DNA of 64,000 nucleotides from Parabacteroides goldsteinii. Its GTDB lineage: Bacteria > Bacteroidota > Bacteroidia > Bacteroidales > Tannerellaceae. The stretch lies in the NCBI RefSeq assembly GCF_015550595.1, contig NZ_JADNBB010000020.1, positions 1 to 64,000 of the forward strand, read 5' to 3'. Made by a program: the position numbers and the translations under genes. This document shows, one piece after another, positions 166-63,785 of the stretch. Below the pieces are notes generated by a model. The model saw nothing but the letters and a program-made list of their open reading frames with translations, was not told the DNA's origin and did not search any database. Positions within the stretch are counted from its first letter, which is position 1. Every line of letters begins with the position of its first letter.

Positions 166-196
166 GCCACTCTGCATTTGCAGGGTGGCTTTTTTA
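166..196 (+). terminator. Intrinsic terminator of a gene left of the window
   Basis: Ten-base stem GCCACTCTGC (166-175) pairs with GCAGGGTGGC (180-189) with one G-T pair, loop ATTT, followed by six T. The T-run is on the plus strand, so it probably ends a transcript entering from the left. It abuts the stop codon of the leftward MFS gene and may also serve it. No gene is recognisable in 1-165; a small palindrome GTACGT-CTA-ACGTAC sits at 72-86. Confidence 0.75.
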
Positions 197-1597
197 TTTG
201 AATCCTTTCAATGGGCGTGGTTGTGAAATTCTCAGGCAGCTGACTATTGCGGCAACAACAGCAAAACCGGTAGCTAAATATAGACACGCTTGCGAACTAT
301 TGGTCGGGATTAAGTTGAATATCATGGCAACTAATGTCGCTCCCAATGTTTGTCCCAGTAAGCGTGCCGTTCCCAACATCCCGCTTGCTCCGCCACTTCG
401 GTTGGATGGAGCAGAAGAGATAATAGTACTGTTGTTGGGTGTCTGGAATAAGCCGAATCCTGCACCACAGATGAACAGACGCCATACAATATCCATATTT
501 GTTGGATCAGAGGGGAGAATGGCTAAAAGGAAGAGCCCTGTTGCAAATATGGTCATGCCGATTCCTCCCAATATACCTGCATGGATACGTTCAACCAGGC
601 GTCCCGCAAGGGGAGCCATGATCATAGTGGCCAGTGGCCAGGGTGTCAGAAGTAATCCGGTTGTTACATCGCTACGTCCCAACGAACCTTGCAGGAAAAA
701 AGGAAGGGAGATCATCGCTAGCATTTGTCCGGTGAAGGAACAGATAGATGTGCCGATCGACATGGAGAAGATCGGGATACGCATCAGGTCGACGGGAAGT
801 AATGGAAATTGCTGTTTCAACTGGCGGCGGACAAAGAAATATCCGGTCACGCATAAAGCAATGATCCCTCCTATGATCAGTGAAAGGTTTTCTTTATGAG
901 CAATACCTTCAAGTGAGAAAATCAACAATCCGAAGGTAAAAGCGTTCATTACACAACTGATTTTATCGAAGAGCCTGCCGGTTACCTTTACCGGATTTGC
1001 GGGTAAGTGCATCATCCCGATCACTAAAGCTGCGATCCCGATCGGGATATTGATTGCAAAGAGCCAGTGCCAGGAACCTAGTGATAAAATGATAGAGGCT
1101 ATAGTTGGTCCTGCGGCGATGGATACTGCGACAACCAGTGCATTAATACCCATCCCACGACCTAGAAAACGTTTTGGATAAATGATCCGGAGCAGCGCCG
1201 TATTCACGCTGGTGATGGCAGCAGCTCCGAATCCCTGTAATATACGTGCAGCAGTCAACATCCAGAACGAATCGGCCAAAGCGCAGATAGCAGATGTGAT
1301 GCTGAACAGCAAGATTCCTGATAAGTAAATCCTCCGATAACCGTAAATGTCTCCCAATGAAGAGAAAGAGAGAAGCGAAATGGTGATGGCCAGCTGATAG
1401 GCATTGACTACCCAGATCGTTACGGACGGTGATGTTCCCAGGTCGCGTGCTATGGTCGGTAATGCAACGTTGGCAATGGTTCCGTCTATCACCGACATTC
1501 CTACTCCTAAAGCTGTGGCTAAGATGGCCCAGTAACGCTTGGGTAACGGCAATCCGTCGTTTTCATTTACAGTTGTGGCGTGATTTGACAATATCAT
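194..1597 (-). CDS. MFS drug-efflux permease, DHA2 (EmrB/QacA-like) family
   Basis: Inner-membrane proton-coupled exporter of 467 residues. Seen: a hydrophobic protein with the DHA2 start VIDGTIANVALP (TM1), motif A LGDIYGYRRI between TM2 and TM3, and an antiporter motif C-like AAGPTIASI in TM5. The length suits 12-14 TM segments. ATG start at 1597, 10 bases after the stop of the upstream metallopeptidase gene, so the two are probably co-transcribed from the promoter near 3670. The substrate cannot be read from sequence; drugs, bile compounds or small metabolites are possible. No regulator lies beside it. Confidence 0.9.
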   Translation of the reverse strand: MILSNHATTVNENDGLPLPKRYWAILATALGVGMSVIDGTIANVALPTIARDLGTSPSVTIWVVNAYQLAITISLLSFSSLGDIYGYRRIYLSGILLFSITSAICALADSFWMLTAARILQGFGAAAITSVNTALLRIIYPKRFLGRGMGINALVVAVSIAAGPTIASIILSLGSWHWLFAINIPIGIAALVIGMMHLPANPVKVTGRLFDKISCVMNAFTFGLLIFSLEGIAHKENLSLIIGGIIALCVTGYFFVRRQLKQQFPLLPVDLMRIPIFSMSIGTSICSFTGQMLAMISLPFFLQGSLGRSDVTTGLLLTPWPLATMIMAPLAGRLVERIHAGILGGIGMTIFATGLFLLAILPSDPTNMDIVWRLFICGAGFGLFQTPNNSTIISSAPSNRSGGASGMLGTARLLGQTLGATLVAMIFNLIPTNSSQACLYLATGFAVVAAIVSCLRISQPRPLKGFK

Positions 1598-1607
1598 TTT
1601 ATCTTAT

Positions 1608-3611
1608 TTACTTGATAACTTCTCTTACTGCTTCCAGCATGGGTTCGACTGTGAGCGGACTTCCGGTTGCCAGTATCATCCATTGGTTCGGTGTAAGGCG
1701 TCCCTGGCGGAAGATACGTTCGACTTCGTTGGCAAAATCCTTGCCTTCCAGATACTGGTCGAGTTGGAATTCGATGATCTGTCCGAAGGCATAGGCCGAC
1801 AAATACAGCGGATAACTGATCATATGCGAATAAACAGCCAATACTGTTTCATCTTTTACACCGAATACCGGTGCATAATATTTATTCCAAATTTCTTTCG
1901 ATAATCCGATTGTTGCCTCCTTCAGTTGCTCGACAGTTGCTTCCGGGTGGGCATACATCCATTTCCAAACGGAAATATCCAACATGGAAACACCACATAT
2001 TTCGTACATGCTCCATATCTTATCCAGGATATCCATCGCTTTTTTATCCGGATTCGGATCGGTAATGCCTAATATTTCAAGGTCACGTTTCTGGAATACA
2101 AAGGCCAGTGCTTCGGTAAAGGCTGTGTTCGGAACACCGCTCAACATATAATAATCTACGTCATAAAGTGATAGTGTTTGTTCCACATTATGGCCGAATT
2201 CATGGATAGCTATGTTGTATCCTTTGTAATTCATTCCGGTTGCCGGAATACGGGTACGCAGGTGTGATTGCTGCCCTTTCATAGCTGCTCCCCAAGCATG
2301 TCCTGAACCACGAGCTGCATCTACGATGATCTTGTCGGCCAGATAATTGGCACGTTCGGCACTGAAGCCAAGTTTCATCAGGATATCCGGCAGTTTCTTA
2401 TCCAGTGTGGCAGCATCCGGATAAAGGGCCTGGGTTTGTGCATCCAGTTTTGTTTCGTCGAGGTTACTGCGTGCTTTGAAACCGTCGTACCAGATATCAT
2501 AGGCTTCCAGTTTTCGTCCGAGCCGTTTGGAAATCATTTTGCCGACCTCTTTTAGTTCAGGGGCAGACAGAAATTCGTCGAATAACTTTTCAACGTCCTG
2601 AAGGGAAACTTCCATGTTGTCGTTGAAATTTCGGTCGATAAAAGTATCGCCGGTATATTTATCGATACCCTGCATTGCTTTGAAGTTGTTCAGCATTTTC
2701 TGATAACGGACAGTCGACTCAGGAGTTGCTTTAACTTCTTTATTGTCCTGACTGATCGTGTTACGATACGGGTTCCATTCGCAGGCACCCGAGTTAATCA
2801 CTTCGACCGGAATCTCCTGTGATACGATCCGTTTCATTACCTCATAAACGGTACGTTGTTTATCCAGCCCCTCTTTTCCTTTATTATAGTTAGCCTTGAT
2901 CTCATCGCGCAGATTCCAGTGCGATAGCAATATCATGTCTTTAGGAAACAAGAACTGATCCTTTTTGTTTTGTACATGTCCCATATAAATATTGTACTGG
3001 GAAATATAAATGTCGGCATCACTTCCGGCATTGGCTACTACTTGTTTCAGAGAAGCCGGGATACGTTCGGTGAACAAGTCACCCATGCGGGCATAGGCCC
3101 AGGCTTTACGGTCGGGACCGAGTGCCTCTTTTTCTTCCAGTGTAAGATGAGGAAAGTTAAGGGCAATGATGAAAGCGATCTTGTTGTTATATAAATCGTC
3201 GCTGAGGTGAGTCGACGGACTGTAGGAACCGAACTTCTCGTCGATAGGAAGCAGCGGGCCATTATCCAGATGCAGGCTTTTTTGCAGGCGTAAAGACATT
3301 TCGTTGAAATGTCCGTCGATACCTTCCAGGTAGTCACTGATCTTGAGGAATACCTGATACTTCTCGTCCGGATTGGCGATGTAGTTTGCTTCGCAGAAGG
3401 TTTGGAAGGCCGCGTTGTCTCCATCTGCCTGTTGCCAGAGACGGGCTACTTGTGTGACACCTTTTTCAATACCGGATTTGTTGCTGTTGTCTTTGGCTGT
3501 CAGCGCCTTGATTGTAGATTGCACAACTGACGGGTCGATTGCCGCTTGTCCGTTCAGATACGCTAATGAGCAAATAAGCATGATGAAAGTGCGTTTAATT
3601 AGATTTCTCAT
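1608..3611 (-). CDS. Exported zinc metallopeptidase (HExxH, M3-like gluzincin)
   Basis: About 667 residues. N-terminal signal peptide (MRNLIKRTFIMLICSLAYL then NGQA), then a long mainly helical region and the zinc motif HEFGH near residues 470-474. A Glu about 30 residues later (NTAFTEALAF) is a good third ligand, as in gluzincins. The reading frame runs up to a TTG at 3668, but the -7 box at 3666-3673 would start transcription near 3655, so I take the ATG at 3611. Probably a periplasmic or surface peptidase; the family name M3-like is tentative. First gene of a two-gene unit with the MFS pump. Confidence 0.8.
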   Translation of the reverse strand: MRNLIKRTFIMLICSLAYLNGQAAIDPSVVQSTIKALTAKDNSNKSGIEKGVTQVARLWQQADGDNAAFQTFCEANYIANPDEKYQVFLKISDYLEGIDGHFNEMSLRLQKSLHLDNGPLLPIDEKFGSYSPSTHLSDDLYNNKIAFIIALNFPHLTLEEKEALGPDRKAWAYARMGDLFTERIPASLKQVVANAGSDADIYISQYNIYMGHVQNKKDQFLFPKDMILLSHWNLRDEIKANYNKGKEGLDKQRTVYEVMKRIVSQEIPVEVINSGACEWNPYRNTISQDNKEVKATPESTVRYQKMLNNFKAMQGIDKYTGDTFIDRNFNDNMEVSLQDVEKLFDEFLSAPELKEVGKMISKRLGRKLEAYDIWYDGFKARSNLDETKLDAQTQALYPDAATLDKKLPDILMKLGFSAERANYLADKIIVDAARGSGHAWGAAMKGQQSHLRTRIPATGMNYKGYNIAIHEFGHNVEQTLSLYDVDYYMLSGVPNTAFTEALAFVFQKRDLEILGITDPNPDKKAMDILDKIWSMYEICGVSMLDISVWKWMYAHPEATVEQLKEATIGLSKEIWNKYYAPVFGVKDETVLAVYSHMISYPLYLSAYAFGQIIEFQLDQYLEGKDFANEVERIFRQGRLTPNQWMILATGSPLTVEPMLEAVREVIK

Positions 3612-3665
3612 AAGACTTATGTTATTAAGTTTAAGATCTTCCCCTATGTAAATAAAAGCAAGAAA

Positions 3666-3673
3666 CAAATGTA
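3666..3673 (-). promoter_or_regulatory. -7 box TACATTTG of the metallopeptidase-MFS operon
   Basis: Reads TACATTTG on the minus strand, matching the Bacteroides TAnnTTTG box; no clear -33 element. Predicted start near 3655 lies between the TTG at 3668 and the ATG at 3611, which settles the start codon. Confidence 0.5.
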
Positions 3674-3686
3674 GGGATAATATTTG

Positions 3687-3694
3687 TATCTTTG
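3687..3694 (+). promoter_or_regulatory. -7 box TATCTTTG of the DUF4923 gene
   Basis: TATCTTTG fits TAnnTTTG and lies 31 bases before the ATG at 3725. It is back-to-back with the leftward promoter at 3666-3673, so the two genes share one short divergent control region. Confidence 0.6.
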
Positions 3695-3724
3695 TATGTT
3701 TTAAAAAAGAGTAAAACTAGAGAA

Positions 3725-4345
3725 ATGAAAAAAGTGTGGATTATAATGGTTGCAGTATGCAGCCTGCTGTCTGTATCCGGTCAGGTTTACGGACAATCGT
3801 TGAAAGACCTGTTGAACTCGTCTACAGTAAAAGATGCAGTGACTTCCGTGACGGGAGGTAAGAAACTGACCGTTGATAATCTGGCGGGAACCTGGACGTA
3901 TACGAATCCGGCTGTTCAGCTGGAAGGAGATAACGCCTTGAAGAATGTTGCCGGAAGTGTAGCTGCCGGTGAACTGGAAAAGAAGCTGAAAACATATTGT
4001 GCTAAGGTTGGTATCGTTGAGGGTATGTTCAATTATGTATTCAATAGTGACAGCACATTTACGAATGCATTGAAGAAGAAAACCTTGAAAGGTACTTTCT
4101 CTGTTAATCCGGATGAGAAGACGGTTGAACTGAAATATGCTTTGGGTGGAAAACTGAAAGTGACCACTTTGACAGCTCATGTCGTTATCTCCGGCGATGA
4201 GTTATCGTTATTGTTCAATGCAGATAAGTTGCTTGATTTTCTAACTAAAATATCCTCTATATCCGATAACTCTACGTTGAAAATGGTTAATAAATTGGCC
4301 AGTGAGTACGATGGAATGATGTTAGGGTTTGAATTGAAGAAATAG
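3725..4345 (+). CDS. DUF4923 family exported protein
   Basis: 206 residues. A signal peptide (MKKVWIIMVAVCSLLSVSG, cleavage near VYGQ) is followed by a lipocalin-like domain with the family's typical stretch LAGTWTYTNPAVQLEG and repeated beta-strand segments (TFTNALKKKTLKGTFSV, VELKYALGGKLKV). The family is common in Bacteroidales and has no established function; a periplasmic or outer-membrane-associated place is likely. An in-frame TTG at 3692 overlaps the -7 box and is rejected as a start. Monocistronic; its stop lies about 18 bases before the left end of an IS element whose end-hairpin may now terminate it. Confidence 0.85.
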   Translation: MKKVWIIMVAVCSLLSVSGQVYGQSLKDLLNSSTVKDAVTSVTGGKKLTVDNLAGTWTYTNPAVQLEGDNALKNVAGSVAAGELEKKLKTYCAKVGIVEGMFNYVFNSDSTFTNALKKKTLKGTFSVNPDEKTVELKYALGGKLKVTTLTAHVVISGDELSLLFNADKLLDFLTKISSISDNSTLKMVNKLASEYDGMMLGFELKK

Positions 4346-4362
4346 AAATAAATGTAAAATAG

Positions 4363-4379
4363 GAGGTTGTGTCAAAACT
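4363..4379 (+). repeat. Left terminal inverted repeat of the IS
   Basis: GAGGTTGTGTCAAAACT; matches the reverse complement of 6194-6210 except at two positions. Its outer part also pairs internally with 4384-4390. Confidence 0.85.
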
Positions 4380-4397
4380 CTGGCACAACCTTTTTTT
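4365..4397 (+). terminator. Terminator-like hairpin at the IS left end
   Basis: GGTTGTG (4365-4371) pairs with CACAACC (4384-4390), followed by seven T (4391-4397). It would stop rightward read-through into the transposase and can end the DUF4923 transcript. Confidence 0.7.
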
Positions 4398-4479
4398 ATG
4401 CACAAAGCCCAGACTTTCACAAGCCCGGGCTTTGTTATTACCCAAAGTTTTTATATCTTTAGGCATAAAGTTTTTCGTT

Positions 4480-6141
4480 ATGGCAAAGTTACATTTTCGT
4501 CCTTACATTCCCAACCAAACAGTTCTTTTTCCCGGAAGAATTGATGAAAACATAGCAGCGAACGATCCGGTTCGCATAGTTAATACTGTTGTTGATACTC
4601 TCAATCTTGACAATTTCAAGAAGCTTTATAAAGCAACCGGTCGTTGTCCTTATCATCCTAAAATGATGCTTAAGGTGATTATCTACGCCTACATGAACAA
4701 TATCTATTCGTGCCGCAAAATAGAGAAGCTTCTCCTACGTGACATTCATTATATCTGGCTTTCCGGTAATGAACATCCGGATTTTATTACCATCAATCGT
4801 TTTCGAAACCGTGTAAAAGAGGAAATAAATACCGTATTCACGCAGTTGGTTCTTGTCCTTGCCGACAAAGGTTTCATCAACCTTGACGTAGAGTATATCG
4901 ACGGTACCAAGATTGAGTCCAAAGCCAACAAATATACTTTTGTCTGGCGCAAGACAGTCGAAAAGAACCGTACAAAGCTGATGGATAAGATCCACATTCT
5001 CCTGGAGCAGGTGGATGAAGTCATAGCCCAAGAGAACTCCATGAAAGACACACCCGTAGAGTTCACTCCCGCCATGCTCTCAGATATAGTGAATGAACTT
5101 AAAGAGGTGCTGGAACACCAGCCTGTAACAAAGGACAAGGAACAAAAGAAAGTCATCCGGGAAAAGAAGAAACAGGTCCGGGAACTTGAGGAGTACCGTG
5201 ACAAGTTGATGGAATACGACAACCATCTTGATACTCTTGGAGAACGCAACTCCTACTCCAAGACCGATCCTGATGCCACCTTCATGCGCATGAAAGAAGA
5301 CGCCATGAGAAACGGGCAGACCAAACCCGGATATAATCTGCAAATAGGTACCGAGAACCAATTCCTCATAGACTTCCGACTGTTTCCCAACCCAACCGAT
5401 ACACTGACCCTCATACCTTTCTTCCACTCCTTTGAGCAACGCTATAACCGCTTACCAACTGTCGGTGTGGCAGACTCCGGGTACGGCTCGGAAGAAAATT
5501 ATCGATTCATGCAAGATAATGGGATAGAAGCCTTTGTCAAGTACAACTACTTCCATAAAGAACAGCGTCCCCGTTATACCCCCAATCCATTCCATGCGGA
5601 GAGTCTCCATTACAATGCGGGGGAGGATTATTACGTTTGTCCTATGGGGCAGCACATGAACCGTATAGGAACCAGACATGACAAAACAGAGAGCGGATAC
5701 ATCACCGAAAGTGCCCGGTATAAAGCACAAAGATGTGAAGGGTGTCCTTTGCGTGGCAGTTGCTTTAAAGCTCGGGGGAACCGTATTATAGAAGTCAACC
5801 ACCGGTTAAACCAATACAAACGGCAGGCACGGGAAAGGTTACTCTCGGAAGAAGGCATCAGGCATAGGAGAAGGCGATGTATAGAACCGGAAGCAGTTTT
5901 TGGACAAATGAAACACAACATGGCATACAAAAGGTTCCGGCATGTGGGAGAAGACAAGGTTACAATGGACTTTGCCTTCTTTGCTATAGCTTTTAATATC
6001 AAAAAGATGTGTACAAAACTACTAAAAGCAGGAAAGAGAAGGAGTGCACACACTATATTTATCTTTATCAGACCACGTGTGACTCAAAATACGACGAATA
6101 TTAAGCCTTATTACCTAATTACTGAAAAAATAGTCGCATAG
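4480..6141 (+). CDS. IS1182-family DDE transposase
   Basis: 553 residues from the ATG at 4480 (MAKLHFRPYIPNQ); upstream in-frame codons run into the IS end and are unlikely to be used. N-terminal DUF772-like domain (about 40-115, with HPKMMLKVIIYAYMNNIYSC), a coiled charged insert (about 200-270), then the DDE fold: first Asp in YIDGTKIESKANKY, second in VADSGYGSEENY, Glu in EAVFGQMKHNMAYKRF. A Cys-rich stretch (CPMGQH, CEGCPLRGSC) before the last motif is typical of the family. Frame intact and full length. Its promoter must lie in the 80 bases after the left end. Confidence 0.95.
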   Translation: MAKLHFRPYIPNQTVLFPGRIDENIAANDPVRIVNTVVDTLNLDNFKKLYKATGRCPYHPKMMLKVIIYAYMNNIYSCRKIEKLLLRDIHYIWLSGNEHPDFITINRFRNRVKEEINTVFTQLVLVLADKGFINLDVEYIDGTKIESKANKYTFVWRKTVEKNRTKLMDKIHILLEQVDEVIAQENSMKDTPVEFTPAMLSDIVNELKEVLEHQPVTKDKEQKKVIREKKKQVRELEEYRDKLMEYDNHLDTLGERNSYSKTDPDATFMRMKEDAMRNGQTKPGYNLQIGTENQFLIDFRLFPNPTDTLTLIPFFHSFEQRYNRLPTVGVADSGYGSEENYRFMQDNGIEAFVKYNYFHKEQRPRYTPNPFHAESLHYNAGEDYYVCPMGQHMNRIGTRHDKTESGYITESARYKAQRCEGCPLRGSCFKARGNRIIEVNHRLNQYKRQARERLLSEEGIRHRRRRCIEPEAVFGQMKHNMAYKRFRHVGEDKVTMDFAFFAIAFNIKKMCTKLLKAGKRRSAHTIFIFIRPRVTQNTTNIKPYYLITEKIVA

Positions 6142-6217: not shown

Positions 6218-7087
6218 TTAGATTTCAGTATCCGGTGCTTCCGGATCGATGATTGTTCGTATTACGTTGTAAAACTTGAATTCGCTCATGGTCCAATAAA
6301 CTGTATTATTGTTTGTTTTATTCACAATGAGACGAATGTAACTAAACGGTTGTGAAACCTTAATGACAGGGGATGTATAGTCATCTGAAGCGGTAATTGG
6401 CAATCCGTCGTTTTCCTGGGTAAAATTCTTGATTAAAAACCAGTTTATTCCATCCTTACTACCCATCAGATCGAAATCGGTCGGCTTATTGCTCGCATTA
6501 TTTCGTGGAGCATAATAAAATTTAAAGTGATCATCCACTGTTTGTTTTAAATTTATTTGCATCCAATGAGGTGCTTCGACTGATATACTCCAAGCCGTAT
6601 GGAAATAGGTCGCAGTATTGTTATCCAGTAAATTTTCGATACTTCCTTCCGATGGTTCCTGGGCATTTGTACTCAGATCGTTGGCTGAGAGTTTTATTTG
6701 TTCACTTTTTTCTTCGACAGTAATAGGAGCGGCTTCAGAAGTCGCCTCGATTGTTTGTACTTTCCCTCCGGTATCCGTATAACTGAACGGCTGTACTGTG
6801 AATGAATAAGTACCGTATTTTTTGCGGGTATTCGGAATCAGGAGACTGTCGCTGTAAATGCTTGCCAGCCTGGTTACCTCTTTCCCTTGTAATTTATCAT
6901 AATAAGATACTTTTGTGTAACGGATAGTCTCATCACTGGGCAATTCCCAATATAAAGAGATTTGTCCCGGACTGCTTTGAGTTTGTAGATTTGTTATGTC
7001 TGAAGGGATCATTTCCTCTTTCTTTTCGCAACCTGCTAAACCAAAATATAACAGGCTGATTAATATGTTGATTATAGTTATTCTCAT
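6218..7087 (-). CDS. PUL lipoprotein with Fn3-like and discoidin-like domains
   Basis: 289 residues. Signal peptide II with lipobox LAGC, so a lipoprotein, probably displayed on the outer membrane beside SusD. About residues 30-125 look Fn3-like/DUF4959-like (ISLYWELPSDETIRYTKVSY). About 150-280 resemble an F5/8 type C (discoidin) fold: NLLDNNTATYFHTAW, HWMQINLKQ, SKDGINWFLI. Likely a surface glycan-binding protein. Third gene of the susC-susD operon, 12 bases after the SusD stop. Its own stop is only about eight bases from the IS right end, so whatever once followed may have been displaced. Domain names are by resemblance. Confidence 0.75.
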   Translation of the reverse strand: MRITIINILISLLYFGLAGCEKKEEMIPSDITNLQTQSSPGQISLYWELPSDETIRYTKVSYYDKLQGKEVTRLASIYSDSLLIPNTRKKYGTYSFTVQPFSYTDTGGKVQTIEATSEAAPITVEEKSEQIKLSANDLSTNAQEPSEGSIENLLDNNTATYFHTAWSISVEAPHWMQINLKQTVDDHFKFYYAPRNNASNKPTDFDLMGSKDGINWFLIKNFTQENDGLPITASDDYTSPVIKVSQPFSYIRLIVNKTNNNTVYWTMSEFKFYNVIRTIIDPEAPDTEI

Positions 7088-7099
7088 ATAATTGATCGA

Positions 7100-8998
7100 T
7101 TAATATCCTGGATTCTGTACTAAATTCTCGTTTTTGTTTACGTCGCTGATCGGTATAGGCAATAGATATTGCGTCGGACTTTCAAATTTACGTTCAAAGA
7201 TCACTTCTTCTGTTTTGGCATATTCTTCGAGAGTCGCAGCTTCTATATTCATTCCCTGTGCCTTATTATTGAAATACTTTTCTGCAAGTTTCCATCGTCG
7301 CATATCCCAGAAATTCTGATTTTCAAGATAGAATTCGATCATTCTTTCCTGGCGAACAATATCCCGCAGTTTATCCTGCGTCAACGTGGCGATTTTGTTC
7401 CATGCAGTTTCTACTGTCGGTATACCGGCGCGTTCTCTAACTTTGTTCAGGTAGATTTTTCCGTTTACAAGATCATTCGTTTCGATACAAGCTTCTGCAT
7501 ATCCAAGGTACAGGTCTGCTAACCTGACGATTGGCCACGGATAATCAAGAGGTCCCTGCAGGCTCTTGGATACGGCATAGCCTGGGTCGACTCCTTTTTT
7601 ATTGAGAAATCCGGTTGGGGAATAGTTGTTTGCACGAAGATTTCCAACGCTGCCGCGTGCTGTATTTCCACCCAGTACGAAGTCACAAACCAATTTCCCC
7701 TTGTTGTCGGCAGGACTGTATTTTTGGTAGCTGGAATCATCAGTATAGGCACCATTGGTTGGTGCACTTAGTATTTCATAAAAACCATTTTGGAAAGCAA
7801 CCCATGCATAAAAACGGGGCTCCCTGTTCAGATTGAATTTAAGTGTTTGTGATCCTTTATCTGCGATATTCGCATGTTCATCATCTACTGTTATCAGGTT
7901 GAACATGGTAGAGAGATCGAAATCCGGGTCCTCTTCGATCGGGAGCCCATTTTTCGTATAAAATCGTTTAAGCATGCTGAGAGTCGGAGCGATGCCATTC
8001 CAGGCACTTCCATTACAGAATGGGATCGATTTATTCTGAATGCCGTAAGCTCCTTCATCTCTGCTGTCAGCCCAGATAATCTCTTTATTGCCGGCTTCTA
8101 TGATATTGTAGCGCAGGCAATGTTGTGTAGGATCTGTCGGTTCCAGGTTTCCACCATTATATCCGGTGTTTGTATACAAAGCATGACCGGCAGTTTCTGC
8201 CAAATTTATAGCCTCTTTATAAGCCTCTTTGGCTTTACCCCATTTATTGGCATCATAACTGAGAGGCATCAGTGGAGTTCCGTCTTTATTAACAAAATTG
8301 TTGTAAAACTCACTGTTTCCATTAAACAGTGGTGAGGCTGCATATAATAACATTTTGGCTTTTAAAGCTTTGGCGGCAACATTCGTGGCAAGTCCGTACT
8401 GTCGTACCGGACGTGTATCCGGTAGGCTGGCTGCTGCTTCATCGAATAGGTCGCACACATATTGAACGCATTCGTTTAACGGACTTCTTCCCAGATATTC
8501 GGAAGGAGGTGTTATCAGTGAGGGTTCTTCTTTTATCAGAATGACCGGGCCATAGCAACGTATGAGTAGAAAATGATAATAGGCGATGAGGAATTTGGCC
8601 TGAGCCACATAATCGTCTCGTGTGTTTTGTGGTAGATTAGGGACCTGATCGATATTATTGAGCATGATGTAACATTGTCTTAACCCTTGGAAGAACGTAT
8701 TCCAATAGGAAATAACCGGTGTAGATGCTGTGTAGTTTCCTTTGGGGAAAGAGGCGAATGTTTCATGTTCGAAGGCCGTAACAACTTCGTCTCCTGTCAT
8801 TAAGTCGAGTGACGAGGTACCGCTCCTGGGAGCAGGCAGATAGGAATAGCAGGAGTACATGAACCGTTCTGCCGCATTAGTGTCTTCGAAGGCATCCTTT
8901 TCTGTCGGTTTCTCATCCGGAACCACGTCCAGATAGTTACATGAAGTAAAGCAGATAACAAACAGTATCGATATTGAAAATCTATGTAATATATTCAT
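7100..8998 (-). CDS. SusD/RagB-family nutrient-binding outer-membrane lipoprotein
   Basis: 632 residues. Lipoprotein signal (lipobox FTSC, then NYLDVVPDEKPTEKDAFED, the usual SusD start). A TPR-rich helical core follows, e.g. AAKALKAKMLLYAASPLFNG, and the typical C-terminal region RLADLYLGYAEACIE, then RDIVRQERMIEFYLENQNFW and PTQYLLPIPISDVNKN. SusD proteins cap the SusC barrel on the cell surface and bind the oligomer before import. Ten bases after the susC stop. The substrate is not evident, as no glycoside hydrolase, sulfatase or protease is adjacent. Confidence 0.95.
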   Translation of the reverse strand: MNILHRFSISILFVICFTSCNYLDVVPDEKPTEKDAFEDTNAAERFMYSCYSYLPAPRSGTSSLDLMTGDEVVTAFEHETFASFPKGNYTASTPVISYWNTFFQGLRQCYIMLNNIDQVPNLPQNTRDDYVAQAKFLIAYYHFLLIRCYGPVILIKEEPSLITPPSEYLGRSPLNECVQYVCDLFDEAAASLPDTRPVRQYGLATNVAAKALKAKMLLYAASPLFNGNSEFYNNFVNKDGTPLMPLSYDANKWGKAKEAYKEAINLAETAGHALYTNTGYNGGNLEPTDPTQHCLRYNIIEAGNKEIIWADSRDEGAYGIQNKSIPFCNGSAWNGIAPTLSMLKRFYTKNGLPIEEDPDFDLSTMFNLITVDDEHANIADKGSQTLKFNLNREPRFYAWVAFQNGFYEILSAPTNGAYTDDSSYQKYSPADNKGKLVCDFVLGGNTARGSVGNLRANNYSPTGFLNKKGVDPGYAVSKSLQGPLDYPWPIVRLADLYLGYAEACIETNDLVNGKIYLNKVRERAGIPTVETAWNKIATLTQDKLRDIVRQERMIEFYLENQNFWDMRRWKLAEKYFNNKAQGMNIEAATLEEYAKTEEVIFERKFESPTQYLLPIPISDVNKNENLVQNPGY

Positions 8999-9008
8999 TT
9001 TATCTATA

Positions 9009-12000
9009 TTATTTTAATGTCATTTGAAAACCTATATTATACACTCTTTGAGTGGGATAGCTTAACCCTTTTCCTCCTCCCATTTCCGGATCCCAGTATT
9101 TGAAAGGAGCGAAAGTCAGTAGGTTGGTGCCGCTCAGATATATCCTCATGTTTTTGAAAGAATATCCGATTTCGGCATTTTTCAATTTAAGGAATGCTGC
9201 ATTTCGTAACCAGAAATCGGAAGTCTGACTATTATGGTCGTTGTTATATTTTGTCAGTCTCGGATATTTCGCATTGATATTCTGGTTGGTATCTGACCAG
9301 TAATCGTCGGCTACAAACTGTAGTACATTCCGGTTGTACTGTGTACCGAAAGGGTGGAAACCACTCATCATCAGCGAAGTGTTGGCAACTCCCTGAAAGA
9401 AAAATGAGAAGTCCCATTTCTTCCATTGGATGGAAGGACCGAAGCCATAGACTATTTCCGGGACAGTGGGAAAACCCAAAGGCACGCGGTCGTCTGAAGT
9501 GATCTTTCCGTCATAGTTCCCTTCGGTGTCCGGTTGGTCTACATATTTAATATCTCCCGGTGCGATGGCTATATTTCCGAGTGTGGAAGTCGGGCTGTTG
9601 GCTATGTCCGCATAATCGATAAATAACTTATCGGTTATGTAACCGTAGTACGTATTTAACTTCTTGCCGACTTGTGAAAGTGAGGAACGTAATCCCGGAG
9701 CTTCATCATATTCCAATACTTTATTGCGGGCAAAAGTGAACGTCCCTTTGAATTGAATCGACAAATCTCTGGTTAGTTGTTCTCCATAATCAATGGACGC
9801 ATCGAATCCCCAGTTTTTGACTTTTGCCAGGTTCCCGTAAACGACAGTTCCGGCTGTCCCCAGGTAATTGGGTATGGATTTTTTCTGTTGGAAGATGTCG
9901 CGTCTTATTTCACGGAAACCATCGATGGTAAAATTTATGGAGTTCAGTAACTGTAAATCCATTCCGACATTGAGCTTTTCTCCGACTTCCCAGGTAATGG
10001 AATTGTTTTGATAACGGTTGTAAGTCGGTCCTTTGTGCGACACTTTATTATTCCCATATCCGGTGGTGAAATCTGCCGTGTTTTGTAAATTTATATCGGA
10101 TAAATAAATGAATCGCACGAGTACATTATCCTGGGTGATCTGGTCGTTTCCTACTAATCCATATGAACCGCGTAATTTTAAGTTAGAGATAACGGGGGTT
10201 ATGGGGTTGAAGAAATTCTCTTGTGCTACATTCCAGCCGATAGCTATTGACGGAAAGAATCCCCAGCGGTTACCGGATGCAAAATTCTCCGAACCGTTAT
10301 ATCCGGCATTGACCTCTATCATATAGCGATGTCCGTAATCATAAGAAAGACGTCCGGCTATTCCCATTTTTCGTCGAGGCAATGACTGTATTAGGTCCGA
10401 TCCCGGTACGTTATTATCGTATTGGTCGAGGTTCCATAAAGCCATTCCATTTACATGATGATCCCCGAAAGAATGTGTATAATCCAGGTAAGCCTGTGCA
10501 TAAATACGACGGTCCCCGTAAACGTTGCTGGTTGTACTTAGTGTCGGTTTAGTCGGGTTACCCATCGGAGATATTTCATACGAATAGGTGCCGTCTTCAT
10601 TTTTGCTATAACTGTTTAATGTATAGCGGTTATATCCTTGTGAACGGAATGTTTCGGTCTTATTCCAATTCTTGAAGGAAAACAGTGCCTTAAATCGCAG
10701 TCCTTCTGTGATAAAGTCCAGTTTTTGGTCGAAGTCGATGTTTGCAAGCACGGTACTTTCGAAGAGGCTTTTATATCCATTGGTAAATAAAGCCATTGGA
10801 TTGGTTGCTCCCTGGTCGTTTCCTCCGGCATAGGCACCCCATTTGATCCAGTTGGAAGAATTGTCTTTTGGATAAGATACCGGGAAATCGACCGGGTTGG
10901 AGTTCATAATAGAACTATATATATCGTTGACGGCGGTGTTAGGGGAGTTCATGTCATTTAATTGTACATTCAGATGTAATGAAATGGTGGAGGTCCTGCT
11001 CATATGGAAATCGATGTTGTTCTGGAAAGCATACTTTTTCAGGTCTATATTGTTGTTGTAGGAAAACAGATCCGCAGTACGATTCTTTAGCATACCGGTT
11101 TCATGGTTGACACCTATATTCATGAAATAGGTGATCTTTTTGGTACCTCCCCGAATATTGAAATTTGCTTTTTGGTTGAATGCCAGATTTTTGAATATTT
11201 CATCATACCAGTCGACATTAGGAAAAACATATGGATTCAGGTTATTCCGGGTCCCGTAGATCTGCTCGTCGGTAAACATGACGTCACCCGTTCCCTGGTT
11301 GGTGATCGCTTCATTAAACATCTCCATATATCTGGCCCCATCGACAAATTTGGGTACTTTGGTCGGGGTGGACACATTGCCTTCTATACGGAATCCAATA
11401 ATCGGTTTTTCAAGGTCTGCTCCACTTTTGGTTGTGACTATCATTACTCCATTGGCACCTCTGGTTCCGTACATTGCAGTAGCTGTGGCATCTTTCAAGA
11501 TAGAAAAACCGTCTATGATCTCAGGATCGAGTGCATTAAGATCGGCGGAACTGACTTCCACACCATCCAGGATAATTAATGGAGAAGTGATGCCGCTCAA
11601 CGTTGATACTCCCCGGATAAAGAAGTCTGCACTGTTACTTCCCGGTTGTCCGCTTCTTTGATAGGCAACGACTCCTGAAAGTCGGCCGGCAAATGAGGTG
11701 GAGAGGTTGGAAGACGGTACTTTTAAATCTCCCGGACGTATTGTTTGGACAGAACCTACAATACTTTCCTTTTTCTGACCGGCACCAAAGGCTGTGACTA
11801 CGACTTCATCAAGCATTTCGGTGTCTTCCTCTAATCTGATGGTGAAGATGGTATTTTTACCGACTTTTATTTCCTGGGATGTATATCCTATAAAGGAAAT
11901 AACGAGTGTATTCTCGGATGAGCATGAGATATTGAACTTACCATCAATATCAGTAATGACACCTGTCGTCGTTCCTTTTACCTGTATAGTGGCATTAATG

Positions 12001-12170
12001 ACCGGCTCATTTGTTTTGGCATCTAAAACAACACCTGTAATGTTTTTTTTCTGCTGTATCGAAGGTAAGGAAACATTTGGTTCTGTCTCTTTGGCTGCGA
12101 GATTTCCTATCCCAGAAAGAAAATAACATATAGCGAGAGAAATAAATACTTTATTCATACATACTTTCAT
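9009..12170 (-). CDS. SusC/RagA-family TonB-dependent outer-membrane transporter
   Basis: 1053 residues. Signal peptide; carboxypeptidase-regulatory-like domain about 42-118 (ITGVVLDAKTNEPVINATI, GKFNISCSSENTLVISFIGY); TonB-box-like DEVVVTAFG; plug domain (ATAMYGTRGANGVMIVTTK); then a 22-strand barrel ending in YNIGFQMTLK. It imports oligomers across the outer membrane with the SusD lid. ATG at 12170; a second ATG at 12158 is possible. First gene of susC-susD-lipoprotein. The 610-base upstream region holds two inverted AGTTC-N5-GAACT sites flanking a promoter, so expression is probably phase variable. There is no N-terminal STN domain or adjacent FecIR pair. Confidence 0.96.
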   Translation of the reverse strand: MKVCMNKVFISLAICYFLSGIGNLAAKETEPNVSLPSIQQKKNITGVVLDAKTNEPVINATIQVKGTTTGVITDIDGKFNISCSSENTLVISFIGYTSQEIKVGKNTIFTIRLEEDTEMLDEVVVTAFGAGQKKESIVGSVQTIRPGDLKVPSSNLSTSFAGRLSGVVAYQRSGQPGSNSADFFIRGVSTLSGITSPLIILDGVEVSSADLNALDPEIIDGFSILKDATATAMYGTRGANGVMIVTTKSGADLEKPIIGFRIEGNVSTPTKVPKFVDGARYMEMFNEAITNQGTGDVMFTDEQIYGTRNNLNPYVFPNVDWYDEIFKNLAFNQKANFNIRGGTKKITYFMNIGVNHETGMLKNRTADLFSYNNNIDLKKYAFQNNIDFHMSRTSTISLHLNVQLNDMNSPNTAVNDIYSSIMNSNPVDFPVSYPKDNSSNWIKWGAYAGGNDQGATNPMALFTNGYKSLFESTVLANIDFDQKLDFITEGLRFKALFSFKNWNKTETFRSQGYNRYTLNSYSKNEDGTYSYEISPMGNPTKPTLSTTSNVYGDRRIYAQAYLDYTHSFGDHHVNGMALWNLDQYDNNVPGSDLIQSLPRRKMGIAGRLSYDYGHRYMIEVNAGYNGSENFASGNRWGFFPSIAIGWNVAQENFFNPITPVISNLKLRGSYGLVGNDQITQDNVLVRFIYLSDINLQNTADFTTGYGNNKVSHKGPTYNRYQNNSITWEVGEKLNVGMDLQLLNSINFTIDGFREIRRDIFQQKKSIPNYLGTAGTVVYGNLAKVKNWGFDASIDYGEQLTRDLSIQFKGTFTFARNKVLEYDEAPGLRSSLSQVGKKLNTYYGYITDKLFIDYADIANSPTSTLGNIAIAPGDIKYVDQPDTEGNYDGKITSDDRVPLGFPTVPEIVYGFGPSIQWKKWDFSFFFQGVANTSLMMSGFHPFGTQYNRNVLQFVADDYWSDTNQNINAKYPRLTKYNNDHNSQTSDFWLRNAAFLKLKNAEIGYSFKNMRIYLSGTNLLTFAPFKYWDPEMGGGKGLSYPTQRVYNIGFQMTLK

Positions 12171-12356: not shown

Positions 12357-12372
12357 TAGTTCTCGAAGAACT
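12357..12372 (+). repeat. Inner inverted repeat of the putative invertible promoter
   Basis: TAGTTCTCGAAGAACT. It contains AGTTC-N5-GAACT, itself a palindrome, and the exact reverse complement of this 16-mer lies at 12690-12705. Confidence 0.85.
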
Positions 12373-12437
12373 ATGTAGTTATTTCTTGTTCTTAAATTCA
12401 AAATAAGAAATCTTCCGTTGTTTTACAATCGATGCGA

Positions 12438-12445
12438 CAAATATA
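12438..12445 (-). promoter_or_regulatory. Second -7-like box TATATTTG inside the invertible segment
   Basis: Minus-strand TATATTTG fits TAnnTTTG; only a weak TTG about 15 bases upstream. It may be a secondary start or chance in A+T-rich DNA. Confidence 0.35.
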
Positions 12446-12646
12446 CAACTATTTATACAACAATTACCATATATAAATCAAATATTTTTTATTTATTGTA
12501 ATATTTCATGCCGAAATATAAAATCAAAGCCACAAGATCACATAAAAACACAGTTTTCACTCTCTATTATCATATCCTCATGCCAGATTTGCAAAACCCG
12601 TAACAAAGCCATAAAAACGAGTCTCTATGTTTATCTTTTCAATACC

Positions 12647-12678
12647 CAAACATATCGTTTTCCAAAGAAAAAAGCAAA
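12647..12678 (-). promoter_or_regulatory. Near-consensus promoter for susC inside the invertible segment
   Basis: On the minus strand, TTTG (12678-12675), 20 bases, then TATGTTTG (12654-12647): a full match to the Bacteroides primary-sigma pattern. Predicted start near 12640, giving a leader of about 470 bases before the susC ATG. It lies just inside the outer inverted repeat. Confidence 0.7.
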
Positions 12679-12689
12679 CATTTTAATTG

Positions 12690-12705
12690 AGTTCTTCGAG
12701 AACTA
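12690..12705 (-). repeat. Outer inverted repeat of the putative invertible promoter
   Basis: Plus strand AGTTCTTCGAGAACTA; its reverse complement is identical to 12357-12372. Confidence 0.85.
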
Positions 12706-12784
12706 TGGTAAGTTGATTTTTACGTATTTTGTTGTGATTTAGCTGTTTAGATAATAGCGATAAATAAGATTCTTTGTATACTAT

Positions 12785-13456
12785 TTATTTTAAACCAGGC
12801 AATAACCTGTAAAGCGTTTTTCTTGTCATAATCCTCTTATTCAGAAAGCTAACAATATATCCGGTTATACAGGCTGCAATAAGTGATCCTTCGCGTATAC
12901 CTTCGATCCCTTGAGTGAATATAAGTGAAATTAGTATAGCTAAAGTAACTAATGTGACATCAAAATAAACCTTGAACTTTCCAAACTCTTTGTTATAACA
13001 ACGGGAGGCATACTTAACAAACGCTTCTGCACTCATCATCGCGACTTTCGGTTTAATTTCGAGTACAACACCGACCGACTGCACAAGACATCCAATAAGT
13101 AATAATGCCATCGACATTCCATAGCCGGACGGATGTAAATTGCCAGTCAACGCCATGTTGAAGTCGATAAATGCAGAAAAAAGAAGGGAGAATGGTAATT
13201 GAAGAAGTATTTCTATTATATCCTGTCGGCTCCTGTCTTTTCTGATAAGCCAGAATTGTCCCAAAATCAAAACCACATTCACTATAAATGTCCATGTCCC
13301 TAATGATAAGGGCGTATTCAGACTTAACACATAATTTACACTGGATATAGGGGTGGTTCCCAAAGCGGAACGAACAATCAGTACAATACCTACAGCTAAA
13401 AAGTATAATCCCAAAATGAATACCGAATACTTCTTTAGTATCTCTTTTATTTCCAT
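12785..13456 (-). CDS. YczE/YitT-like integral membrane protein
   Basis: 223 residues, about five or six TM segments (FILGLYFLAVGIVLIVRSAL, FIVNVVLILGQFWLI, SMALLLIGCLVQSVGVVLE, VTLVTLAILISLIF). The N-terminal stretch GLYFLAVGIVLIVRSALGTTPISS is characteristic of the YczE/DUF6198 group of uncharacterised membrane proteins. No function is established. Monocistronic on the minus strand; its 3' end faces the invertible susC promoter, which would transcribe it antisense if flipped. Confidence 0.75.
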   Translation of the reverse strand: MEIKEILKKYSVFILGLYFLAVGIVLIVRSALGTTPISSVNYVLSLNTPLSLGTWTFIVNVVLILGQFWLIRKDRSRQDIIEILLQLPFSLLFSAFIDFNMALTGNLHPSGYGMSMALLLIGCLVQSVGVVLEIKPKVAMMSAEAFVKYASRCYNKEFGKFKVYFDVTLVTLAILISLIFTQGIEGIREGSLIAACITGYIVSFLNKRIMTRKTLYRLLPGLK

Positions 13457-13542
13457 ATCAAATCTCTATTTGTATATCTTCTTCACAGTTTCCGAAAAAG
13501 ACATACAAATATACGATTTTTTTGTTAAATAAAGAGGAGATG

Positions 13543-63718: not shown

Positions 63719-63785
63719 CAGTTGACAAGTGACAGTTGACAGTTTAGTTTTTCTATTCTAATTGTCAACTGTCACTTGTCAACTG
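63719..63785. repeat. 23-bp perfect inverted repeat between mreB and mreC
   Basis: Left arm 63719-63741 (CAGTTGACAAGTGACAGTTG then ACA) and right arm 63763-63785 are exact reverse complements; loop of 21. Each arm holds two copies of AGTTGACA. No T-run follows and the next gene continues in the same direction. Confidence 0.9.

Follow-up and report, generated by a model that had tools for sequence, protein, structure and literature searches.

A probable invertible promoter upstream of a SusC/SusD operon in Parabacteroides

Phase variation of SusC/SusD systems by DNA inversion is established in Bacteroides fragilis (PMC4747536), where invertible SusC/SusD regions controlled by Tsr0667 are described in the parts of the accounts considered here (PMC4747536, PMC11852207). 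The sections consulted of two accounts of gut Bacteroidales invertons (PMC11892184, PMC10939037) deal with promoters of the Bacteroides box type, flanked by short inverted repeats and located near surface genes; the second covers intragenic regions, shufflons, and regions within or near SusC/SusD systems, the last showing some of the largest differences between IBD patients and controls. A further relevant system is BT4244-47, a mucin locus of B. thetaiotaomicron in which, according to the portion of PMC11992087 used, BT4244 is an M60-like O-glycopeptidase, BT4245 is a surface protein that binds glycans and combines a linker with a CBM32 domain, and BT4246 (PDB 5CJZ) binds the core-1 disaccharide.

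Here we describe a 317-bp segment with its flanking sites that is a new Parabacteroides case of these known SusC/SusD invertible promoters. It lies in the window, that is, the whole stretch of 64,000 nt that was analyzed (bases 1-64000 of contig C12, from a genome of 6.5 Mb in 85 contigs, designated G000). As far as the excerpts of their description go, the Tsr0667 regions likewise involve SusC/SusD genes and one enzyme for many scattered regions, as would be the case here, but the window locus is from the genus Parabacteroides and has a simple two-site promoter instead of a multi-site shufflon. With the gut Bacteroidales invertons, as partially covered above, it shares the box promoter, the short inverted repeats and the vicinity of surface genes, and it shows the arrangement by which invertons are recognized, namely a gene preceded by a promoter-like box between inverted repeats; the portions compared of both inverton accounts, leaving aside their tables, do not name this locus. 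Compared to what the same portion of PMC11992087 says of BT4244-47, the order of susC, susD and a gene for a linker plus F5/8C/CBM32 protein is alike, and the window SusD is related to BT4246 (PDB 5cjz). Unlike that locus, the window operon has no adjoining M60 peptidase or sigma/anti-sigma pair and no STN domain, and has a flippable promoter instead, while the linker domain is DUF4959 rather than the DUF1735 of the BT4245 system.

Inverted repeats and candidate promoters upstream of susC

The susC-proximal site (12357-12372, plus strand; TAGTTC-TCGAA-GAACT) and the susC-distal site (12690-12705, minus strand) are exact reverse complements (16 of 16 bases) and enclose 317 bp (12373-12689). The first-pass annotation had reported identical 16-mers in inverted orientation at these positions, both containing AGTTC-N5-GAACT, and we found them exactly so; additionally, their spacers, TCGAA and TTCGA, are reverse complements. 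Within the 64-kb window, the two arms are the only exact matches to the site, and there are five matches with one mismatch (2.29 expected). Perfect inverted repeats of at least 16 nt within 1 kb were absent from 20 dinucleotide shuffles of the window, whereas the real sequence contains two, the 12357/12690 pair and another with 23-nt arms placed 21 nt apart (63719-63741 and 63763-63785).

Two candidate promoters, both on the minus strand and thus pointing toward susC as sequenced, occur in the segment. From its position, the likeliest -7 box of the switchable promoter is TATATTTG (12445-12438), passed over in the first-pass annotation, which conforms to TAnnTTTG and is 65 bp from the susC-side arm, the usual position in this site class; its -33 element is weak (TATG, 3/4, at a spacing of 22 nt). 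The match TTTG-N20-TATGTTTG (12678-12647), previously proposed as the susC promoter, is indeed present on the minus strand and facing susC, with a perfect -33; however, it is close to the far arm, 274 bp from the arm to which it points, and we regard it as a secondary candidate. Matches of this type appeared, on either strand, in 2.7% of 3000 shuffled inserts.

The comparison with other inserts flanked by the same sites favors the box near the arm. An outward-pointing TAnnTTTG at no more than 70 bp from one arm is found in 10 of the 13 inserts of the same genome (mean of 1.9 and maximum of 6 in 500 shuffles), and is absent from the other three. The corresponding inward-pointing box, used as a control, occurs in only one of 13 (1.75 in shuffles), which is that of the window. 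Likewise, the outward box is near an arm in all six inserts preceding homologous susC genes (mean of 0.7 and maximum of 4 in shuffles), a set that excludes L023, where a transposase gene lies between susC and the pair, which is 2.3 kb upstream; the later find L134 also has the box. Altogether, 15 of the 18 inserts compared with that of the window obey this rule of position, while no outward box near an arm occurs in any of the eight Bacteroides inserts of the FecR type, which is described below. By position and by this 18-insert comparison, the promoter driving susC is probably TATATTTG at 12445-12438 and not that at 12678-12647, which may contribute as well.

With the target gene of each inverton being our own choice, the box points toward the presumed target in three inserts of the genome (window, L010 and L016) and away from it in seven (L006, L007, L008, L013, L014, L015 and L018). 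In the homologous loci, it faces susC in L020 and L021 and the opposite direction in L019, L027, L035, L041 and L134. The operon is thus predicted to be ON as sequenced, as was previously proposed from the other promoter, and after inversion the promoter would read antisense into the adjoining gene (12785-13456, minus strand), which encodes a YczE/YitT-like (DUF6198) membrane protein, YczE-like in the earlier annotation. A sigma-70 scan was uninformative, with eight sites (7.5 in shuffles), and it detected no terminator.

The site class and its inversions in Parabacteroides and Bacteroides

The pattern AGTTCN5GAACT occurs 45 times in the genome, against two occurrences of a reversed control pattern. 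Forty-two of these sites, including the two from the window, fit AGTYYYN4GDACT, the motif that Nakayama-Imaohji reportedly gave in 2009 for the Tsr0667 regions of B. fragilis; on that basis we tentatively assign the window repeats to this B. fragilis class. Neighboring sites form 13 pairs less than 1 kb apart. In each of the 13, one spacer is the exact reverse complement of the other, and no two pairs share a spacer sequence, which is what strand exchange within the spacer would lead one to expect. This matched-spacer rule offers a simple means of listing the switches of this site class in one genome. Among 38 genomes of the genus, the highest counts are those of G009 (54), G037 (46) and G000 (45), each with two control matches; the excess is smaller in G013 (25/7), G014 (24/7), G012 (22/9), G021 (21/2), G002 (14/2) and some others, and many show none.

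The genome holds other arrangements of these sites. On contig C85, two sites separated by 7.8 kb and located amid three similar susC genes (L017, 4278 and 12053), and not counted among the 13 close pairs, could form a shufflon. The inverton on C50 (L016, 6269-6502) is between a sulfatase-like gene, identified by eye, and an integrase gene, which its promoter would face if flipped, and two others (L007, 6247-6472; L008, 6446-6713) adjoin HU-like DNA-binding/DUF4469 genes instead of susC.

Sites of this class do invert, as seen at two loci other than that of the window. Seven invertons of the genome have a full orthologous locus in the congener G037, and six of them show the same orientation; in the seventh (L012 versus L121), the insert is cleanly inverted between colinear flanks and the change ends at the sites. 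Two further comparisons gave a partial match in the same orientation (L016/L129) or were too repetitive for scoring (L017/L128). In Bacteroides, the inserts of L150 and L154, which are 98.8% identical, run in opposite directions between flanks that share 95-97% identity, and this locus precedes a SusC that is 60% identical to that of the window. L152 and L153 have the orientation of L154, and orientation is also uniform within L140-L142. Among the homologous susC inserts, L019 and L027, in the same orientation, were the only ones similar enough to compare. Because the same class inverts at two other loci, and from the matching anatomy, we infer that the window segment inverts too, and very probably it flips back and forth, switching nutrient uptake on and off.

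Same-class sites were also found within genes for FecR anti-sigma factors. On contig C10, an insert (L009, 6224-6797; C10:48923-49496) contains codons 1-66 of the gene for a 314-aa FecR. In the sequenced orientation, the FecR-susC-susD operon on the right has the complete FecR; flipping the insert in silico completes a 314-aa FecR on the left, heading another operon, and cuts the one on the right to 254 aa. Both proteins match FecR, both SusCs have STN domains, and G037 (L119) shows the same arrangement. In Bacteroides, sites of this class cut the FecR gene preceding a related STN-type susC: L150 has an intact FecR (313 aa, with FecR domains found), and in L152, L153, L154, L140, L141 and L142 a 5' part of 78-79 codons is antisense. 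Judging from these sequences, the same class of sites flips the 5' end of FecR genes, a phenomenon more unusual than the window switch. We found no FecR flipping in literature searches on anti-sigma inversion, intragenic invertons and FecR phase variation, nor in the parts of PMC13114119 considered, although related cases may be present in the tables of PMC10939037, an account used here in part. It seems somewhat more plausible than otherwise that one site class gates one SusC lineage in two ways, by flipping a promoter before STN-less susC genes and a FecR 5' exon before STN-type ones.

Pairs directly upstream of susC, of the same kind as in the window, are found with exact sites in L019, L021, L027, L035 and L134, and with one or both sites varied in L020 and L041. 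Visual inspection shows different genes on the far side of these loci, L020 and L021 alone having the same ones. Conversely, 21 of 28 loci with SusC relatives have no exact or near-exact pair directly upstream, or have it elsewhere; a survey of 30 Bacteroides loci gave five with the pair directly upstream, eight with it about 1 kb upstream, one with a lone site and 16 with none, and the P. massiliensis relative (54%) has no switch upstream. A scan of seven SusCs that have the switch (those of the window, L019, L020, L021, L027, L035 and L134) detected no STN domain, while STN scores were above the Pfam cut-off in L022, L140, L143 and L153 and below it in L023, L025, L028 and L150. An STN-less SusC need not have a switch: among ten Bacteroides frames with the length of STN-less SusCs, the pair is directly upstream in four and not in the other six. 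In a SusC tree of 38 rows, which did not include the switch-bearing L041, the window and six switch-bearing relatives fell in one set of eight (support 99/98), whose remaining member, L022, has sigma, FecR and STN instead; the switch could have been gained once and then lost, or gained twice.

The operon, its presumed cargo and its probable origin

The operon downstream of the switch, all on the minus strand, comprises a SusC-family TonB-dependent transporter of 1053 aa in which no STN domain was found (9009-12170), a SusD-family lipoprotein of 632 aa (7100-8998), and a protein combining DUF4959 with an F5/8 type C domain, a lipoprotein from its N-terminus as judged by eye, with a BT4245-like layout (6218-7087). 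The solved structures nearest to the SusD are 7bll, followed by 5ck1 and 5cjz (BT4246; E 1.2e-69). From the open reading frame lists, neither sigma/FecR genes nor an M60 peptidase gene are located beside the operon in the window or in its switch-bearing kin. The gene at 1608-3668, which encodes 686 aa and is not part of the extra stretch described below, matched no Pfam family. In four relatives (L022, L023, L025 and L028), however, a fourth gene encodes peptidase M60 and F5/8C domains, and L022 and L028 also have sigma and FecR genes. Although the first-pass annotation saw no linked degradative enzyme, the nutrient can be guessed at: because of the BT4245-47-like layout and the M60 genes of those four relatives, our best guess, by family resemblance, is that the cargo would be mucin-type O-glycopeptides or glycans.

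The window positions 195-4344 and 12784-13523 match stretches of G037 that are 88 bp apart. Since the genes flanking the operon are neighbors in that congener, about 8.4 kb containing the operon, the switch and a transposase gene (DDE_Tnp_1_6/DUF772; 4369-6141, plus strand), which marks the far-side boundary, are extra in the window. The best other match of the window SusC within the genus is 54%, whereas its relatives in Bacteroides and Phocaeicola reach 71-74%. Operon and switch thus likely arrived horizontally, with the empty place being read in one congener, G037.

Recombinase, alternative explanations and meaning

The genome contains 48 matches to PF00589 and contig C12 none, which supports, for PF00589 recombinases, the earlier statement that no invertase is encoded nearby and agrees with a recombinase acting in trans. 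The integrase beside the C50 inverton (L051) was considered as the enzyme required by the class and rejected on two grounds: copies of it, 93-100% identical, are scattered over genomes of Parabacteroides, Phocaeicola and Bacteroides, and the nearest match to it in G009, a site-rich genome, has 49% identity. Nor did co-occurrence single out any candidate, since several recombinase groups are common to the three site-richest genomes (those like L054, L055, L056-L060 and L058). This profile covered six short recombinases and 19 genome handles, two of which (G013 and G045) are one genome, and the clustering covered 39 of the matched regions; NCBIfam yielded nothing more specific than XerC/XerD-like matches, all of them under the curated cut-offs. 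The hits of G013, a member of the genus, coincide in identity and coordinates with those of G045, the P. massiliensis SN4 genome reached through L040, which gives the genus as Parabacteroides.

We propose that a tyrosine-type site-specific recombinase supplied in trans would recombine both AGTTC-TCGAA-GAACT sites and invert the intervening 317 bp, carrying an outward-facing Bacteroidales promoter whose -7 box would be TATATTTG. In the sequenced, ON orientation, transcription would proceed through the site at 12357 into the susC-susD-lipoprotein operon; in the flipped, OFF orientation, it would leave through the site at 12705, antisense to the DUF6198 gene. The population would then be divided into users and non-users of the transporter, probably for mucin-type O-glycopeptides or glycans. 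To this mechanism as a whole we assign a probability of roughly 0.87.

It is unlikely, but worth considering, that the segment inverts and yet susC is driven by the promoter at 12678-12647, or by both promoters. That full match is infrequent in shuffled inserts and faces susC as sequenced, and the eight FecR-type inserts show that an arm-proximal box is not indispensable in this site class; against this, the promoter is at the far end of the segment with respect to the arm it targets, and inward boxes near an arm are no more common than in shuffles, the single case being that of the window. Somewhat less probable is a former switch that is now locked, its sites retained in a strain devoid of the active enzyme: the operon looks acquired, so the matching enzyme might be missing, and none of the recombinases was singled out as the invertase. 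However, the genome maintains 13 matched pairs, one of them flipped relative to G037, and it has 48 PF00589 matches. It is very improbable that the palindromic sites are operators of a dimeric regulator; the sites do have the internal inverted-repeat symmetry that an operator could have, but such a role offers no reason for pair-specific spacers that are exactly reverse-complementary in 13 of 13 pairs, and real inversions end at such sites (L012/L121, L150/L154).

If the proposed inversion of the window segment occurs, a nutrient transporter of Parabacteroides, perhaps for mucus-derived glycopeptides, joins the surface systems under coin-toss control, with its switch sitting in a stretch that is missing from a congener. 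The FecR exon flips, in turn, connect two regulatory layers usually treated separately; if the one site class does gate that SusC lineage in both ways, sigma/anti-sigma sensing would come under, or give way to, stochastic genetic control.
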